From Elusimicrobiota bacterium (GTDB taxonomy: Bacteria > Elusimicrobiota > Elusimicrobia > UBA1565 > UBA9628): a stretch of 43,660 nt of DNA. The notes beneath the pieces are model-generated. The model had not been told where the DNA came from. It did not search any database and saw nothing but the letters and a program-made list of their open reading frames with translations. Numbering within the stretch: the stretch's first letter is position 1; each line of letters begins with the position of its first letter. Shown here in pieces: positions 171 through 6,120 of this stretch. The translations under genes were made by a program, and so were the position numbers. Location of the stretch: the NCBI GenBank assembly GCA_030696455.1, contig JAUYSH010000021.1, positions 1 to 43,660 of the forward strand, given 5' to 3'.

Positions 171-1493
171 TCAGCGGGGGCGAGCCGGAAGAAGAGCCGC
201 GCGGGCCGCATGCCGCGCGGCTTCTTCTTTGCGGCCGGCCGCGCGCAGGGCGTCGGCGAGCTGACCGTGCGCAGGACCGAAGGCGGGATCGAGCTTCACC
301 GCCCGGCTCCAAAAGGCGACAGGATCGCGCCAATGGCGCGACTCCCGACGGGAGCCCGCGATCAGCAGCAGGGCCAAGGCGCAGACGGCGGCGAGGCCGC
401 GACCGCCCCGGACGGCCGCCCCCGCGAGCGCGAAAAAACCCAGGCAGCCGAGATAACCGTACGCCAGGTAGACGTAGACCGCCCCCCCCTGGGCGCCGAG
501 CGCCGGAGGCAGGACGGCGGCGGCATAGCAGGTCCCGGCCAGAAGCCAAGAGGGCCGGCGCCGGCGCAGATTCCATAGGACAAGGGCCGCGAGCGCCGTC
601 AGCCCCAGCGCGGCCCATGCGGGAAGCGCCGGCCGGCTCCAGCCGCCCTGCAAGCCGTACGCAGCGAGATAATCGCCGGGCCATGCCAACGCCCATGGGT
701 ACAGCCAGAGGGCCCGCGCGGCCGCGACCGGGGCGAAGGACGGCTCGTAGAGCTCCCGGCTCTTGGCGAGCTGGGTCAGCGAGGCGGCCGCGATCGCGAG
801 CACGACGAACGGCACTTTTTCCGCCCACACGTCCACGCGCTCCTGGTCGAACGGATCCCCGGGGCGGGCCCGCAGCCGCCGCAGCGGCCAGTAGTCGAGC
901 GCGAGCAAAACGAACGGGAGGCTGAGGCTTCGCCAGCGGAAAAGCAAAGACACCGCGTAGAGGGCGAATACCGCCGCCACGCGCGGACGCGCGGTCCCGC
1001 CGAGGTAGACGAATACGGCGAGGAGGAAGCAGAAGGTCGAGAGCATGTCGGGCAGTTCGATGGCCCACGCGACCGTGTTGACCTGGAAGGGGTGCACGCA
1101 GAACAGAAGGGCCGCGGCGAACGCCGCAAGGTCCGGCTGAGGGTTGCCCGCGAGCCGGAACAGGCGCCGGGAAGACGCGAACAGCGCGACCGAAACGAGC
1201 CAATGCGCGATGAGGTTCGCGGCGTGAAACGCCGCCGGATCAAGGCCGCGAAGCGCGAACACCGAGGCGAACGCCGCCCAGCCCAGGGGCATATAAGTCG
1301 TCAGGTAGGTGGTGAAGAACATCCAACGCAGCCGCCCCGCATCGAGGCCGTGGACGCCGGCGTTCTCCACGATCAGGGCGAAATCGTCGAAGACGAAGCC
1401 GTGTCCCAGTATCGGGCCGAACGCGGCGAGCACGGCCAGGAGCAGGACGCCCGCGACCGAGGCGTCGAGGAGGCGACCGCGCGGGAGCTTCAT
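171..1493 (-). CDS. TMTC-like multi-pass (GT-C) glycosyltransferase with C-terminal TPR
   Basis: A 440-aa integral membrane protein with about nine or more hydrophobic helices. The first extracytoplasmic loop after helix 1 carries an FDDF acidic motif (about residues 35-38), the position of the catalytic Asp in GT-C enzymes that use lipid-linked sugars. The last ~55 residues form one or two TPR-like helix pairs. This architecture matches the TMTC/O-mannosyltransferase-like family, which transfers sugars from polyprenyl phosphate outside the membrane; donor and acceptor are unknown. It shares layout and the FDDF motif with the gene at 42374-43660, so the two are paralogues. The ATG has no Shine-Dalgarno site; TAGATT ends 7 bases before it. 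It stands alone, divergent from the gene at 1592. Confidence 0.8.
   Translation of the reverse strand: MKLPRGRLLDASVAGVLLLAVLAAFGPILGHGFVFDDFALIVENAGVHGLDAGRLRWMFFTTYLTTYMPLGWAAFASVFALRGLDPAAFHAANLIAHWLVSVALFASSRRLFRLAGNPQPDLAAFAAALLFCVHPFQVNTVAWAIELPDMLSTFCFLLAVFVYLGGTARPRVAAVFALYAVSLLFRWRSLSLPFVLLALDYWPLRRLRARPGDPFDQERVDVWAEKVPFVVLAIAAASLTQLAKSRELYEPSFAPVAAARALWLYPWALAWPGDYLAAYGLQGGWSRPALPAWAALGLTALAALVLWNLRRRRPSWLLAGTCYAAAVLPPALGAQGGAVYVYLAYGYLGCLGFFALAGAAVRGGRGLAAVCALALLLIAGSRRESRHWRDPVAFWSRAVKLDPAFGPAHGQLADALRAAGRKEEAARHAARAALLPARPR
195..230 (+). terminator. Rho-independent terminator for the partial gene at the left edge
   Basis: A perfect 10-bp GC-rich stem (195-204 with 213-222), an 8-base loop and a TCTTCTTT tail at 223-230. 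It lies inside the 3' end of the oppositely oriented gene 171-1493, where the same bases encode a Lys/Glu/Ala-rich stretch, so part of the symmetry may be coding coincidence. Confidence 0.5.
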
Positions 1494-1500
1494 GGGAAAA

Positions 1501-1506
1501 AATCTA
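1501..1506 (-). promoter_or_regulatory. -10 box, leaderless type, for gene 171-1493
   Basis: TAGATT on the minus strand, 7 bases before the ATG at 1493, with no Shine-Dalgarno site between. Confidence 0.55.
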
Positions 1507-1579
1507 CCATTTCACGGCTAGGCCCAATGACCCGAAGATTCCGGGACCAAGGGCCCTTCAGCCCGAACGCGCGCTTTCA

Positions 1580-1585
1580 TAAGAT
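1580..1585 (+). promoter_or_regulatory. -10 box, leaderless type, for gene 1592-4519
   Basis: TAAGAT ends exactly 6 bases before the ATG at 1592. The 98-base divergent gap (1494-1591) holds this box and the opposite one at 1501-1506. Confidence 0.55.
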
Positions 1586-1591
1586 CGGGGC

Positions 1592-4519
1592 ATGATCCAA
1601 TTCCCCCTTCGCCGCGTCGTCGCCTCCGCTCTTTGCCTCTCCCTCATCGCCGTCTGCCCCGGCCTGGCTCCGTACGCCGCCGCGCAGAACATCCGCGTCG
1701 CACCCGCGGCCTCCGCCAACGTCGCCGCCCCGGCGATATCCCCCGTCTCGGTCGTCGGCGGAGCCTCGTTCTCGGTCCCCTCCTTAAAACCCTCGGCCCT
1801 CGGCCTGACCTCGAGCCTCGGCGCGCCCTCCGCGCCGGCCCCCATGCTCCTCGCTCCCGCGTCGGCGGCTAAGGCCCTGCTCGCCCCTGCCGCGCCGGTC
1901 GCGGGCCCCCTTCTAACGGCGAGCGGAAGGGACACTTCCTCGCCTTATGGCTCGGTCGCCACTCCCATTGCCCTGACCCGGACTGTTTCCGCCGCGGCGA
2001 AGTCGGCCGCGTCGGCGCTCGAGAAGGCCGGCCCGCTCGCCGCCGCCTCGCCCGCCTCCGCCAGCGGCGTCGGGCAGAAGCTCGAGGAAATCCTGACCGG
2101 AGCGCCGGCCCTGCGCCGCGACTCCGAGGTCTCCGCCCCCGCGATCGGCCAGTGGGGCGCGCTCAGCGAATCGATCCAGCTCGCGCGCCCCGCCGGCGAC
2201 TCCATCCGCGCCGCCGTCGCCGCCTCCGTCCAGGAGGCCGACCTTCCTCCGTCTCCGCCCGCCGGCGCGCCCGCCCCGCAGGCGCCGAAGAAGGGCCCCT
2301 TCTGGCCGCGCCTGCTCTCCGCCGGCCTCGCCTTGGCCCCCGCGGTGTTCCTCGGCCTGCCGCTGCTCGCCGCGTCGGCCTACGTCGTCGGCGGCCTCGT
2401 GCTCGCGACGAGCGCCGCGTTGGCCGTGATGCCGTTCCTGAGCGAGACGGCGCCGAAGGCCCTGCGCGCGGCCCCCGGCTTGGCGCTCGCCGCTCTCGGC
2501 GTCGCCTCCGCCGGCATCGCCCTCTCCCTGTCCTTCGGCCTCGGCGTGGCCGTCGCCCCCGCTCTGATCTGGACCGGCGCGCTGGCCGTCCTCGGCGGCT
2601 GGGGCCTGACGCGCTACGGCCTGGGCAAGAGCGAGGGCCGCTACGGCTCCTACGGCTCGGTGGAGACGCTCTCCGCCTTCTTCGGCGGCCTCGCCGCGTT
2701 GACGGGCGTAGCCCTCGCCGCGTCCACCCCGCTGGGCTGGACCGCGACCGGGCTTCTCTGGCTCTCCTATCCGCTGGCGACCTTGCTCTGGTTCCACCTC
2801 CCCGGCTGGGTGGGCAAGGGCATGACCGCCGCCGTCGAAGGCGTCTGGCACGGCATCCTCGGGATGTCGCGCGTGCTCACCGCCATCCACCGCGACACCG
2901 TCCTGCTCGACCGCCTGCAGAAATTCTCTGAAAGACACTGGAACAGTTCTAAGTGGAATGGAGTCTGGCTCGCCGTGATGTGGACGCCGATCATGCTCGC
3001 CGAAGCGTTGATGTACGCGCTCTCCGCCGTCGCCGGCCTCGCCGTCGGCGTCGTGGCCGCTCCCGTTAATTTCCTGTGGGGCGCCTCCGCCAAGCTCTGG
3101 CCCGGCTCCAAGGCCAACGTCTACTTCGCGGAGTCAGCCCGCCTCGTCTTCGATAACGTGCAGAACGGCAAGGTCGCGCGATTCAACCCGCTCGAGTCCA
3201 AGCTGATCCCGCTCGCCAACTCGCCGAAGTTCCTCGTCAGCGCCGCCGGCGCGCTCGGCCTGCGGGCGCTGCAGCTCGGCTGGCTCGTCTACGCCGCGGT
3301 CGCCACGCCGCTGCTGTCGGTCGCCGGCCTCGTCCTCGCTTTCAGCCGCGCCGGGCCCTACGACGAGAAACGCCACGCCCACCGCTCGCTGCGCGTCAAC
3401 CGCGACGACTCTCCGTCGGAGAAGCCCGAGGAGCCGGCCGAGCCCGAGCCCGGCAACCCGTCCAAGGCCACCATCGCGCCGAAGCTGATCGCCGTCGCCC
3501 TGGCCCTCGTGCCGGCCTACTTCTTCGGCCTGCCCATCATCGCGGGAGCGTCCTTCATTCAGATCCCCCTCTACTTCGCGCTCGTTCTGCCTTTGGCCGC
3601 GATGCCTTTCCTCGGCAAGTCTCCTCTGTGGGCCAAGTCCTTCGCGGGCCGCGCCCTGTTCTACAACGGCCTCGTCCTCCTGCTCAACGGCAGCGCGATC
3701 TGGGTCGGCCTGCTCGCCGTCCTCGGCGGCTGGGGCTTCGGCCGCTGGGTCAAGAAGACCGCGGAGAAAGGCGGCTCCTTCGACGAGGCCGAGTTGGGCG
3801 CGTTCTTCGGCGCCCTCGGGTCCGCCGCCGCCGTCGGCGCGGTCTGGGCCGGCTTCCTCGGCGGCTGGGTCGGCTGGGGCACGCTCGCCCTGGCCGCGGC
3901 CACGAGCCCGTTCCTCCTGATGCACCTTCCGTCGTGGGTCTGGGAAGGCCTGCGCGGCGTGTTCAAGTCCTTCGCGCGGTCGATGGAGTCCTTCTCCGAC
4001 GTAGCCGGCTTTTGGCACGTGGACACGAAGTTCCGCTCGAATCTCAAGAGCCACGCCTCCTACTGGCTCCAGAAGACGTACTGGAACGGCGTGTGGCTCT
4101 CGGCGATCTGGGTGCCCGTCGGCCTGCTCCAGGCCGCCGAGTTGATCCTGTCCGTCGCGCTCGGCGCCGTCGTCGGCCTGCTGCGCGCGCCGTTCGCCTT
4201 CGCCGCCTCCGCGTTCGGCGAGGCCAAGTCCGGCTCGAAGGCCGCGCGCTTCGCAAAGGGCCTCGTGGACGGCTGGAAGGCCGCGTCCGAAGGCTCCAAG
4301 TCCCTGTTCGACCGTCTCGTCTCGGGCCTCGTGCCCGCGATGAACGAGGCGACGCCCGAGACCGGCCGTCCGACCTTGAAGGCCGCGGGCGCGTTCCTGC
4401 TCGCGCGCTTCGTCCAGGTCGCCTGGCTCCTCGGCGCCGTCGCGATGAACCTGACGGGCCTCGCGTTCCTGATCGGCCTGTATCGCGGCCTGCGCGCCGC
4501 TTTCACGACGCCAGAATAG
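1592..4519 (+). CDS. Large exported multi-pass membrane protein with an internal duplication, function unknown
   Basis: 975 aa. Residues 1-31 are a classic signal peptide (RR, hydrophobic core, PYAAA cleavage region). Residues ~33-235 are an Ala/Ser/Pro-rich low-complexity linker. The rest is two homologous membrane modules, about 238-585 and 628-970, joined by a charged Pro/Glu-rich stretch near 600-627. Shared landmarks occur about 375 residues apart: a hydrophobic hairpin ending in MPFL, an AVLGGWG turn, an AFFG segment, a hydrophobic segment ending in a P-W pair (LPGWV / LPSWV), and a WNGVWL motif (about 455 and 830). I recognise no family and no catalytic motif. It could be a scaffold, channel or transporter-like protein of the envelope. 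The start is supported by the signal peptide and by a TAAGAT box 6 bases upstream. Confidence 0.8.
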   Translation: MIQFPLRRVVASALCLSLIAVCPGLAPYAAAQNIRVAPAASANVAAPAISPVSVVGGASFSVPSLKPSALGLTSSLGAPSAPAPMLLAPASAAKALLAPAAPVAGPLLTASGRDTSSPYGSVATPIALTRTVSAAAKSAASALEKAGPLAAASPASASGVGQKLEEILTGAPALRRDSEVSAPAIGQWGALSESIQLARPAGDSIRAAVAASVQEADLPPSPPAGAPAPQAPKKGPFWPRLLSAGLALAPAVFLGLPLLAASAYVVGGLVLATSAALAVMPFLSETAPKALRAAPGLALAALGVASAGIALSLSFGLGVAVAPALIWTGALAVLGGWGLTRYGLGKSEGRYGSYGSVETLSAFFGGLAALTGVALAASTPLGWTATGLLWLSYPLATLLWFHLPGWVGKGMTAAVEGVWHGILGMSRVLTAIHRDTVLLDRLQKFSERHWNSSKWNGVWLAVMWTPIMLAEALMYALSAVAGLAVGVVAAPVNFLWGASAKLWPGSKANVYFAESARLVFDNVQNGKVARFNPLESKLIPLANSPKFLVSAAGALGLRALQLGWLVYAAVATPLLSVAGLVLAFSRAGPYDEKRHAHRSLRVNRDDSPSEKPEEPAEPEPGNPSKATIAPKLIAVALALVPAYFFGLPIIAGASFIQIPLYFALVLPLAAMPFLGKSPLWAKSFAGRALFYNGLVLLLNGSAIWVGLLAVLGGWGFGRWVKKTAEKGGSFDEAELGAFFGALGSAAAVGAVWAGFLGGWVGWGTLALAAATSPFLLMHLPSWVWEGLRGVFKSFARSMESFSDVAGFWHVDTKFRSNLKSHASYWLQKTYWNGVWLSAIWVPVGLLQAAELILSVALGAVVGLLRAPFAFAASAFGEAKSGSKAARFAKGLVDGWKAASEGSKSLFDRLVSGLVPAMNEATPETGRPTLKAAGAFLLARFVQVAWLLGAVAMNLTGLAFLIGLYRGLRAAFTTPE

Positions 4520-4525
4520 TACACT
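4520..4525 (+). promoter_or_regulatory. -10 box, leaderless type, for the response regulator
   Basis: TACACT ends exactly 6 bases before the GTG at 4532. It begins at the base after the TAG stop of the gene at 1592-4519, so the regulator can be transcribed on its own although it is only 12 bases downstream. Confidence 0.5.
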
Positions 4526-4531
4526 GTCCGC

Positions 4532-4903
4532 GTGGCGCGCATACTCAGCATCGAGGACGACGTCGACCTTCAGCAGGTCGTGACCTACGCCCTGGCGAAG
4601 AAGGGCTGGGACGTCGTCTACGCCTACGACGGCAAGGACGGCCTCGACCAGGCCCGGAAGGTCATCCCCGACCTGATCCTCCTCGACATGATGCTCCCCG
4701 GCCTCAACGGAATCGAGGTCATCAAGGCGCTCAAGGCCGACGAGGCGACGCGGGACATCCCCGTCGTCGTCATGACGGCCTACCCCTCGGACGCCCAGTT
4801 CCTCAAAAGCGCCGTCCTGGCGATGGGCGCCGTCGAGTACCTCGCCAAGCCCGTCCACATCGACGAGCTCGTTTCGACGATCGAGCGGCTGCTCCCGCAT
4901 TGA
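4532..4903 (+). CDS. Single-domain (CheY-like) response regulator
   Basis: 123 aa, only a receiver domain. The acidic pocket is E8-D9-D10, the phosphoacceptor is D52 (LLDMMLPG), the switch Thr is T82 (VMTAYP) and the conserved Lys is K106 followed by Pro. No output domain follows, so it acts by protein-protein contact or as a phosphorelay intermediate. No histidine kinase lies in the window; the nearest candidate partner is the kinase-less membrane sensor at 6446-7222. The GTG start is set by the first receiver strand and a -10 box 6 bases upstream. Confidence 0.93.
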   Translation: MARILSIEDDVDLQQVVTYALAKKGWDVVYAYDGKDGLDQARKVIPDLILLDMMLPGLNGIEVIKALKADEATRDIPVVVMTAYPSDAQFLKSAVLAMGAVEYLAKPVHIDELVSTIERLLPH

Positions 4904-4914
4904 TCCGGGAGTGC

Positions 4915-4920
4915 TAAAAT
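4915..4920 (+). promoter_or_regulatory. -10 box, leaderless type, for gene 4927-6120
   Basis: TAAAAT ends exactly 6 bases before the ATG at 4927. I see no TTGACA-like hexamer about 17 bases further upstream. Confidence 0.6.
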
Positions 4921-4926
4921 AGCCGC

Positions 4927-6120
4927 ATGAGATTCCTGATCCTCGGCTCCGGCTTCCAGGGGCGCGCCTGCGCGTACGACATGCTCCGCAACCCCGCGGT
5001 GACGGAGGTCGCGCTATGCGACATGTCCGCCGCGAACCTCGCGTCCGCGAAGACATTCCTGGCCAAGGTTTCCAACGGGCGCGCCAAGTTCAAGCGCCTC
5101 GACGCCGCGAACCCCGCCGCGGTCAAGAAGGCGCTCAAGGGCTACAGCGCCTTGGTCTCCTGCGTGCCCTATTTCCTGAACCTCCCGCTCGCGAAGGCCG
5201 CGATCGCGGCCCGCGTGCACTATGTGGACCTCGGCGGCAATACGGACATCGTAAAAAAAGAAATCGCGCTGCACCCCCTCGCGGTGAAGGCCGGCGTCTG
5301 CGTTCTGCCCGATAACGGGTTGGGCCCGGGCATGATCTCGACCTTGGCCGTTCACGCCATGTCCATGCTCGACACGGTCGACGAAGTGCTCATCCGCGAC
5401 GGCGGCCTCCCTCAGAAGCCGGTCCCGCCGATGAACTATATGCTCACCTTCTCCGAGCACGGCCTGATCAACGAGTACGTGGCCCCCGCGACCGCCCTGC
5501 GAAACGGCAAGGTCGTGCAACTCCCCGGCCTGTCCGAGACCGAGATCATCGATTTGCCCGCCCCTCTCGGCCGCTGCGAGGCCGCGCACGCCGCCGGCGG
5601 CCTGTCCACCATGGCCGAGACCTACGCCGGCAAGGTCAAGACGATGGACAACAAGCTCATCCGCTACCCGGGCCATGTCGCGGTGATCAACGCGATGGCC
5701 GCCATGGGTTTTTTCGACGATGCCCCGATCGAAGTCCGCAAGGGCGTCAAGGTCGCGCCTCGGGAGATCGCGGCCAAGCTGTTCCGCCGCCATTTCCACC
5801 GCCCGGGCGATGAGGACATGGTCGTCATCCACAACATCGTGCGCGGCGTCAAGGACGGCCGCCCCGCCGAGATCGTGCACAGCCTCGTGGACTACGGCGA
5901 CAAGGCCAACGGCATGACCGCGATGATGCGCACGACGGGCTGGCCGGCGTCGGTCGTCGCCCAGATGGCCGCCGACGGGCGCGGGCGCATCAAGCCCGGG
6001 GCCTACCCCGTCGAGCTCGGCGTCCCGGCGGAGTCCTTCATCGACGAGGCGCGCAAGCGCGGCTTCAACCTGACCTGGAAGTTCCGCTGGCTCGACGTGC
6101 CCGTCGCCCACGCCTCCTAG
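4927..6120 (+). CDS. Saccharopine dehydrogenase-family (lysine 6-dehydrogenase-like) oxidoreductase
   Basis: 397 aa. The N-terminus is a Rossmann fold with the dinucleotide motif GSGFQG (residues 7-12), followed by a saccharopine dehydrogenase C-terminal domain with DNGLGPGM near residue 130. Members of this length and layout include lysine 6-dehydrogenases, which oxidise the epsilon-amino group of lysine with NAD+, and the carboxynorspermidine/saccharopine dehydrogenase group. I favour an amino-acid dehydrogenase but cannot fix the substrate. An aldehyde dehydrogenase and a class III aminotransferase 2.3 kb downstream could act in the same lysine or omega-amino acid pathway. Its stop shares the four bases CTAG (6117-6120) with the stop of the convergent gene at 6117-6449. 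Confidence 0.85.
   Translation: MRFLILGSGFQGRACAYDMLRNPAVTEVALCDMSAANLASAKTFLAKVSNGRAKFKRLDAANPAAVKKALKGYSALVSCVPYFLNLPLAKAAIAARVHYVDLGGNTDIVKKEIALHPLAVKAGVCVLPDNGLGPGMISTLAVHAMSMLDTVDEVLIRDGGLPQKPVPPMNYMLTFSEHGLINEYVAPATALRNGKVVQLPGLSETEIIDLPAPLGRCEAAHAAGGLSTMAETYAGKVKTMDNKLIRYPGHVAVINAMAAMGFFDDAPIEVRKGVKVAPREIAAKLFRRHFHRPGDEDMVVIHNIVRGVKDGRPAEIVHSLVDYGDKANGMTAMMRTTGWPASVVAQMAADGRGRIKPGAYPVELGVPAESFIDEARKRGFNLTWKFRWLDVPVAHAS

Follow-up and report, generated by a model that had tools for sequence, protein, structure and literature searches.

A two-module membrane protein from one order of the Elusimicrobiota carries a presequence shared with unrelated proteins

What kind of protein has a membrane part built from two similar halves behind a long, exported-looking N-terminus, and where would such a protein reside? 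The question is raised by a gene in a 43,660-nucleotide stretch of DNA from an Elusimicrobiota bacterium (GenBank assembly GCA_030696455.1, contig JAUYSH010000021.1, positions 1 to 43,660), hereafter called the window. The gene, here referred to as that of the twin-module protein, extends over 1592..4519 on the forward strand including the stop codon, starts with ATG and encodes 975 amino acids (aa), which confirms the coordinates and length given in an initial annotation made from the sequence alone. We propose that the product is a lineage-specific membrane protein with two duplicated modules, a presequence that it shares with other proteins and a transporter- or channel-like unit, and we put the probability of this explanation as a whole at about one half.

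A head-to-tail duplication of a module of about 350 residues took place before the radiation of the order to which the source genome belongs. Module 1 (residues 235-597; 2294..3382, this and all other features of the gene being on the forward strand) has about eight hydrophobic segments and is joined to module 2 (residues 624-970; 3461..4501) by a charged and proline-rich connector (residues 598-623; 3383..3460). A Smith-Waterman alignment of residues 235-610 against 626-975 with BLOSUM62 scored 389, compared with a mean of 61.9 (standard deviation 11.3, maximum 114) when the second half was shuffled globally, 105 (20.6, maximum 179) when it was shuffled in blocks of 10 residues and 84 (17.2, maximum 134) in blocks of 20 residues, with 500 shuffles per scheme. 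The similarity between the halves, which corresponds to 31-33% identity between the modules, thus goes well beyond composition and local hydrophobicity. The initial annotation had read the halves as copies of one membrane module that it could not recognise, and this reading is supported: in none of the schemes did a shuffle reach the real score.

The motifs on which that annotation relied (an MPFL hairpin, AVLGGWG, AFFG, a P-W pair and WNGVWL) are also real and are conserved over 26 module copies, in the form MPF, GGWG, AFFG, HLPxW, DT and WNxxWL; the invariant or nearly invariant positions include the prolines of the first hairpin and of MPF, as well as GGWG, HLPxW, DT and W...WL. The constant offset of about 375 residues that had been read between the halves has to be replaced by one of about 391 residues at the module starts and about 377 from the AVLGGWG block onward, because module 1 has an additional stretch following the first hairpin. 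In a tree of the 26 copies, the 13 first modules and the 13 second modules were split by one branch (support 100/99), which was present in 100% of 200 bootstrap trees, and the duplication must therefore be older than the separation of the three sampled families of the order.

The module matches none of the libraries that we searched. The sole Pfam match of the twin-module protein was to TMEM144 (PF07857; E-value 0.0022, 17.5 bits, 36 residues), which covers about 34 of the 332 profile positions around the GGWG-type helix and recurs in 4 of the 26 module copies (best E-value 0.003); it falls short of the curated threshold of 26.2 bits, and we do not assign the protein to this family. Membership in the major facilitator superfamily (MFS; PF07690) found no support either, since the Pfam scan gave no match to it for the protein or for any of the 26 copies, in contrast to three proteins in the same genome that carry the same presequence and that MFS_1 does match. 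The NCBIfam scan of the twin-module protein returned no matches, and PDB sequences searched with phmmer and with the module profile gave no significant match.

An AlphaFold2 model of module 2, based on a 14-row alignment, was all helical with hairpins, with a predicted local distance difference test score (pLDDT) of 70.9 and a predicted template modelling score (pTM) of 0.51, and the model of the whole membrane part (763 residues) was poor (pLDDT 54, pTM 0.38) and was set aside. Foldseek found no match of the module model in the PDB at E ≤ 1e-3, and VIA-align returned helical-bundle background only, with designed helical cages as the best hits (Z 10.0 and 9.1), Z values below about 13 being common among helical bundles according to the tool's own note. 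With a module model of this middling quality, no known transporter or channel fold was matched, the MFS fold of two parallel six-helix halves among them, and the family thus stands as unrecognised, as had been stated initially. A literature search of titles and the starts of abstracts yielded descriptions of neither the module nor the presequence.

The twin-module protein is restricted to one order of the Elusimicrobiota, apart from one weak match. Homologs (E ≤ 0.001) were found in 22 of 58 relatives, source genome included, of which 19 have both modules by our own reading of the matches and two (G001 and G037) show only a partial match at a contig end. In one further genome (G006; L022, G006:C7), the presequence is seemingly followed by module 2 only, which is extended at the C-terminus by about 115 residues, and Ns break the frame. 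A pattern scan of species genomes gave 6 loci, all from Elusimicrobia or Elusimicrobiota metagenome-assembled genomes (MAGs), and the module profile matched 17 of 294 genomes across the phylum, 16 of them in the same order and one elsewhere (G258), where the match is weak (E-value 6e-4, profile positions 245-340, in a frame of 171 aa). Within the order, 22 of 47 sampled genomes carry the gene, and its presence tracks genome size (16 of 18 genomes at ≥ 3.5 Mb versus 6 of 29 below), with the caveat that the sizes are rounded and some genomes incomplete.

The first 200 residues or so belong to a presequence family that consists of a signal peptide, an ordered Ala/Pro spacer and a short LTG/FDG helix, and that is carried by at least 24 proteins in the source genome, the twin-module protein included. 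In the latter, a predicted signal-peptide-like segment (residues 1-31; 1592..1684) comprises an n-region with R7 and R8, a hydrophobic core and the end PGLAPYAAA|Q, in which P23, G24 and A30 show no variation in 14 orthologues, and the pattern PGxxxYxAxAQ at its end (residues 23-32) recurs in other carriers. The Ala/Pro/Ser-rich spacer that follows (residues 32-222; 1685..2257) belongs to the common presequence, near the end of which stands the short conserved helix motif GVGQKLEEILTG (2066..2101), the LTG/FDG-type motif of the carriers. A motif of the SRRxFLK type, as in twin-arginine (Tat) signals, was looked for by eye and none was seen.

A signal peptide followed by a low-complexity linker of 200 residues had been described for this part of the protein. 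Both elements are present, the first with its AAA|Q end and the second with about 190 residues, but low complexity is an inadequate description, because the linker is under purifying selection (dN/dS, the ratio of nonsynonymous to synonymous substitution rates, is 0.35-0.49 against four relatives, versus 0.20-0.29 for the body) and is common to many other proteins. A profile of the first 213 residues, built from the 14 orthologues only, recovered the gene itself and 9 other places in the genome at E ≤ 1e-4, with 4 more up to 0.1, and those among them that were read are the N-termini of unrelated proteins. A second profile, built from 13 carrier proteins, recovered 24 places at E ≤ 1e-4, plus three at lower significance; 13 of the 24 are training rows, among them the twin-module protein (E-value 3.2e-28), and 11 lie outside the training set. 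Four further carriers were recognised by reading, namely an MFS protein (C12), an M48 and MFS protein (C137), a Clp-like protein (C132) and a protein of 2461 aa (C144).

The similarity resides in both parts of the presequence. For 16 carriers outside the training set, 0 of 100 shuffles of the spacer reached the real score in any of the 16, and with a shuffled signal peptide the count was 0 of 100 in 14 carriers and 1 of 100 in two (L213 and L217, the latter being the weakest carrier at 3.4 bits), so that signal peptide and spacer both hold an ordered similarity beyond composition. Among 158 genomes of the phylum, 10 matched the presequence profile at 1e-4, all of them members of the order's families f1 and f2, although distant presequences will be missed by a profile built from the source genome alone.

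According to Pfam, the proteins that carry the presequence include a MoxR-type AAA_3 protein, a TPR/VWA/DUF58 protein of 3182 aa, a Peptidase_M50 protein with S8, an animal haem peroxidase, an M48 protein with MFS, an Rce1-like protease, a HAD-like hydrolase, PspA/IM30, a Lon-like AAA protein, subtilase, S41 with PDZ, trypsin with PDZ and Rce1, Clp-type AAA, amylase, MFS, a PD-(D/E)XK nuclease, S8 with GH77 and MFS with thymidylate kinase, and both GH13 and GH77 are represented. Among them are also an ATP-grasp membrane protein (its MFS part only a weak NCBIfam match) and a protein that joins an adenylate kinase and a uridine kinase behind a PQ-loop domain. For three carriers (L207, L213 and L216) Pfam finds no family. 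The dTMP kinase carrier scores 86 bits against an NCBIfam cut-off of 83.25, the adenylate and uridine kinases are clear matches below the equivalog cut-offs, and all three kinases and the ATP-grasp protein look intact.

On MoxR, the tag is old and has been kept on the clade across three families. Among 14 regions in other genomes that hold the tagged MoxR clade or its neighbours, the signal peptide with its linker is present in 10 and absent from 1, the other 3 being truncated by Ns or the end of a contig. Purifying selection also acts on the MoxR presequence, with dN/dS at 0.25-0.50 over five comparisons and at 0.04-0.17 for the body, and the protein retains Walker A and B. The source genome encodes three AAA_3 proteins, one that is tagged and two whose frames measure 339 and 333 aa; untagged paralogs thus stand alongside the tagged proteins for MoxR (two of three copies), as they do for adenylate kinase and Clp (two full-length copies).

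Several carriers are unusual in their domain structure. The protein of 3182 aa (L078:4321-13866), which lies near the tagged MoxR gene, has a BatD-like start as judged by eye, TPR, three VWA stretches and DUF58, and may represent a MoxR/VWA system in a single giant chain. The protein of 2461 aa (L229, G000:C144, frame from 1642) begins like a membrane protease (AHEVAH, by eye) and contains a double AAA part of the ClpB type whose Walker motifs are intact, and another carrier (G000:C107, L217:1191-4769) is a fusion of MFS, thymidylate kinase and APH/DUF2252. Two tagged Clp-like genes, L212 (C89) and L230 (C132), break off after the same residues, each at the end of its contig, where a repeat probably broke the assembly.

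On which side of the membrane, then, does the linker lie? Averaged over the module copies, the hydrophobicity shows three hairpins, a charged interfacial stretch, one very long helix and a final hydrophobic stretch, which amounts to about eight segments per module. The three hairpin turns contain 0.00, 0.08 and 0.04 lysine and arginine residues per copy (n = 26), compared with 1.35, 2.23, 3.62 and 7.81 in the four stretches on the linker side, the stretches having been picked by eye in the alignment and extending no further than the sixth helix of each module. The positively charged side of a membrane protein is the inside according to the positive-inside rule, and the linker side should therefore be inside; an excess of positive charges opposite the linker, as in an exported protein with its N-terminus out, was not seen in the 26 copies. 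The initial annotation had called the protein exported, which is not a safe term: the marks of a signal peptide are there, but the charge distribution of the membrane part indicates the opposite. We are thus faced with a paradox, in that the presequence reads as exported, yet the charges, the MFS carriers and the ATP-using carriers would put the linker on a cytosol-like side.

In the explanation that we favor, the presequence would address all carriers to one place at or within the membrane. Each module of the twin-module protein would have an even number of helices, about eight and arranged in hairpins, and an even number makes the modules parallel, so that together they could make up a unit with pseudo-twofold symmetry, in the way of duplicated transporters. 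The linker would share one side with the charged loops and with the interfacial stretch RDT...WNxxWL. The least certain step is that the unit may act in a transporter- or channel-like manner where the tagged proteases, the Clp and MoxR ATPases and the MFS transporters work; taken by itself, the transporter-like role is a guess from the architecture, tentative and somewhat on the doubtful side.

Several points weigh against this explanation. Neither a substrate nor a transporter motif emerged, and the predicted fold is of low confidence (module pTM 0.51, whole 0.38, and no Foldseek match at E ≤ 1e-3). A crude single-sequence peak finder gives 7 segments per module, which would make the modules antiparallel, and places 15 lysines and arginines on the linker side versus 20 opposite; we give less weight to this topology because the finder misses helices in MFS proteins, in which it found only 6, 9 and 10, and rely instead on the hairpin charges counted over the whole alignment. 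The helix count depends on hydrophobicity and on a middling model, and its even parity is tentative. Furthermore, the presence of the tag is no proof of a common destination, the neighboring genes described below give no hint of transport, and the patchy presence within the order indicates that the gene is not essential.

One alternative is ordinary Sec export, in which nothing more than a signal peptide followed by a spacer makes up the presequence. The linker would then lie in the periplasm and the membrane part would be oriented N-out, and the ATPase-type carriers would have lost their use of ATP or be adapted to the periplasm. The conserved A-x-A-Q end is typical of signal peptidase I, some carriers are of an exported type (trypsin with PDZ, S41 with PDZ, subtilases, amylase and haem peroxidase), and the source genome has a single SecY gene, all of which is as expected for this pathway. 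The argument from ATP is also weakened by some carriers: Walker B is degenerate in two Clp-like proteins (FIAEIH in C89 and FIDKIH in C132), and no P-loop pattern occurs in the 1074 aa that could be read of the Lon-like carrier (C112) before a contig end cuts the gene. The latter has a LonC_helical match of 22.8 bits, under the cut-off of 24 in this incomplete gene, and may be comparable in its lack of a P-loop to the LonC type, which is ATP-independent. However, export would turn the positive charges of the module copies to the outside. It also conflicts with the MFS carriers, in which the MFS_1 match begins directly behind the linker (profile positions 11-344 in C12 and 3-342 in C107), since the side where the MFS N-terminus begins is the cytoplasmic one in known structures. 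Nor does it explain why MoxR retains Walker A and B in so conserved a body, or why the ClpB-type part in C144, the dTMP, adenylate and uridine kinases and the ATP-grasp protein look intact. We therefore consider ordinary export possible, but doubtful. In the 29 genomes with a SecY match, 26 have one gene, and a second, divergent SecY was observed in G005, G012 and G035; as a second export route it was discarded, being confined to these three and not found in the source genome.

The charge pattern and the ATP-using carriers would be accounted for together if the presequence were a membrane tether without translocation, the hydrophobic N-terminus holding the carriers at the membrane and the linker remaining in the cytosol. 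A disordered tether would be expected to tolerate insertions, and the spacer of the twin-module protein does contain a copy of an interspersed DNA repeat of 63 bp (1900..1962; in-frame reading GPLLTASGRDTSSPYGSVA), which was found at 15 places in the genome at E ≤ 1e-4, this one included, and was not found in the loci of the orthologues at up to 9 mismatches in 36. Three of the 15 copies lie in presequence genes (1900-1962, C137:17961-18018 and C137:26431-26490, the last on the opposite strand), which fits a spacer tolerant of insertions. The repeat resembles small gene-inserting elements, and the fold of its DNA is not special. On the other hand, the N-terminus has all the marks of a cleavable signal peptide (basic n-region, core and A-x-A-Q), which would place its C-terminal side outside, and the trypsin/PDZ, S41/PDZ and haem peroxidase carriers normally reside outside the cytosol. 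Taken together, these points leave the tether a questionable solution, one that we would not expect to hold.

A more far-reaching idea is that the presequence addresses the carriers, including the twin-module protein, to a compartment inside the cell, bounded by a membrane and containing ATP, like the presequences of plastids and mitochondria. As a set, the carriers are reminiscent of the proteome of an organelle (MoxR, Clp, Lon-like, PspA/IM30, trypsin/PDZ, S41, kinases, ATP-grasp, GH13/GH77 and MFS), there are untagged paralogs beside the tagged MoxR, adenylate kinase and Clp, and the tag has been kept on the MoxR clade in three families (10 of 14 regions, with 3 cut and 1 without). Nevertheless, there is only one SecY in the source genome and in 26 of the 29 genomes with a match, the Walker B motif is broken in two Clp-like carriers, no import machinery turned up, although no search was aimed at it, and no report of such a compartment was found at the level of titles and the starts of abstracts. 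To our knowledge, neither an organelle nor an import machinery is known in the phylum Elusimicrobiota. We regard such a compartment as improbable, and likewise give little credence to its consequence, an order of bacteria with an organelle and presequence-based import of some thirty tagged proteins, with its own Clp, MoxR and Lon-like quality control, PspA, nucleotide kinases and transporters. Finally, an assembly or gene-calling artefact, which a MAG source and the Ns or frameshifts in some relatives (L012 of G004, L022 of G006, L033 of G010 and L035) might suggest, can be dismissed, as the two-module open reading frame recurs in other MAG records and in the majority of the 22 genomes, out of 58, that have a match, and dN/dS is well under 1 in both presequence and body.

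The surroundings of the gene add a few details. Upstream of module 1, the motif LARPAGDSIRAAVAA (2180..2227) is conserved in the twin-module family, with P200 invariant and I205 and A208 almost so. A single-domain response regulator (Response_reg, 4e-23; 4532..4903, forward strand) begins 12 bases past the stop codon and is kept in L030 and L034 and was not found in L033, and a saccharopine-dehydrogenase-type protein (4927..6120, forward strand) is kept in L030, L033 and L034 and adjoins the gene in L025. A promoter and terminator scan of 1480-5000 gave no signal exceeding that of shuffles.

The membrane part of the twin-module protein represents a family absent from the searched libraries, with a clean and ancient duplication. 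More surprising is the presequence shared by unrelated proteins: in a phylum about which little is known, one order puts the same long presequence on dozens of unrelated proteins, including enzymes that are normally cytosolic and need ATP. Any destination demands an explanation: either ATP is used outside the cytosol, or the signal peptide fails to export its proteins, or the cells contain an internal compartment.

How do these features compare with known systems? Closest at hand is another carrier of the source genome, P0002 (C117, L084:5051-9247, 1399 aa), which has the same presequence and three mutually alignable membrane repeats that belong to no family; homology between its triple repeat and the twin module was considered and is unsupported (hhalign probability 4%). 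The likeness to TMEM144 is confined to one stretch of 36 residues at the GGWG-type helix, at 17.5 bits instead of 26.2 and in only 4 of 26 copies. Like the duplicated transporters of the MFS type, the twin-module protein has two homologous membrane halves in one chain, which are probably parallel; unlike them, it has no MFS_1 match, longer modules, a large interfacial stretch between the hairpins and the last helices, and no motif A that could be seen by eye.

For the presequence, the YSIRK/GS signal peptides of Gram-positive cocci offer a parallel in that one recognisable N-terminal signal is placed on many unrelated proteins, whereas the shared part here extends over 150-200 residues with an ordered spacer and a helix motif, and the carriers include nucleotide kinases, MoxR, Clp and polytopic transporters. 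The presequences of plastids and mitochondria likewise stand on ATP-dependent enzymes, proteases, PspA/IM30 and carriers, while untagged paralogs remain in the cytosol, but the N-terminal segment of the Elusimicrobiota presequence, in contrast to theirs, looks like a Sec signal peptide.

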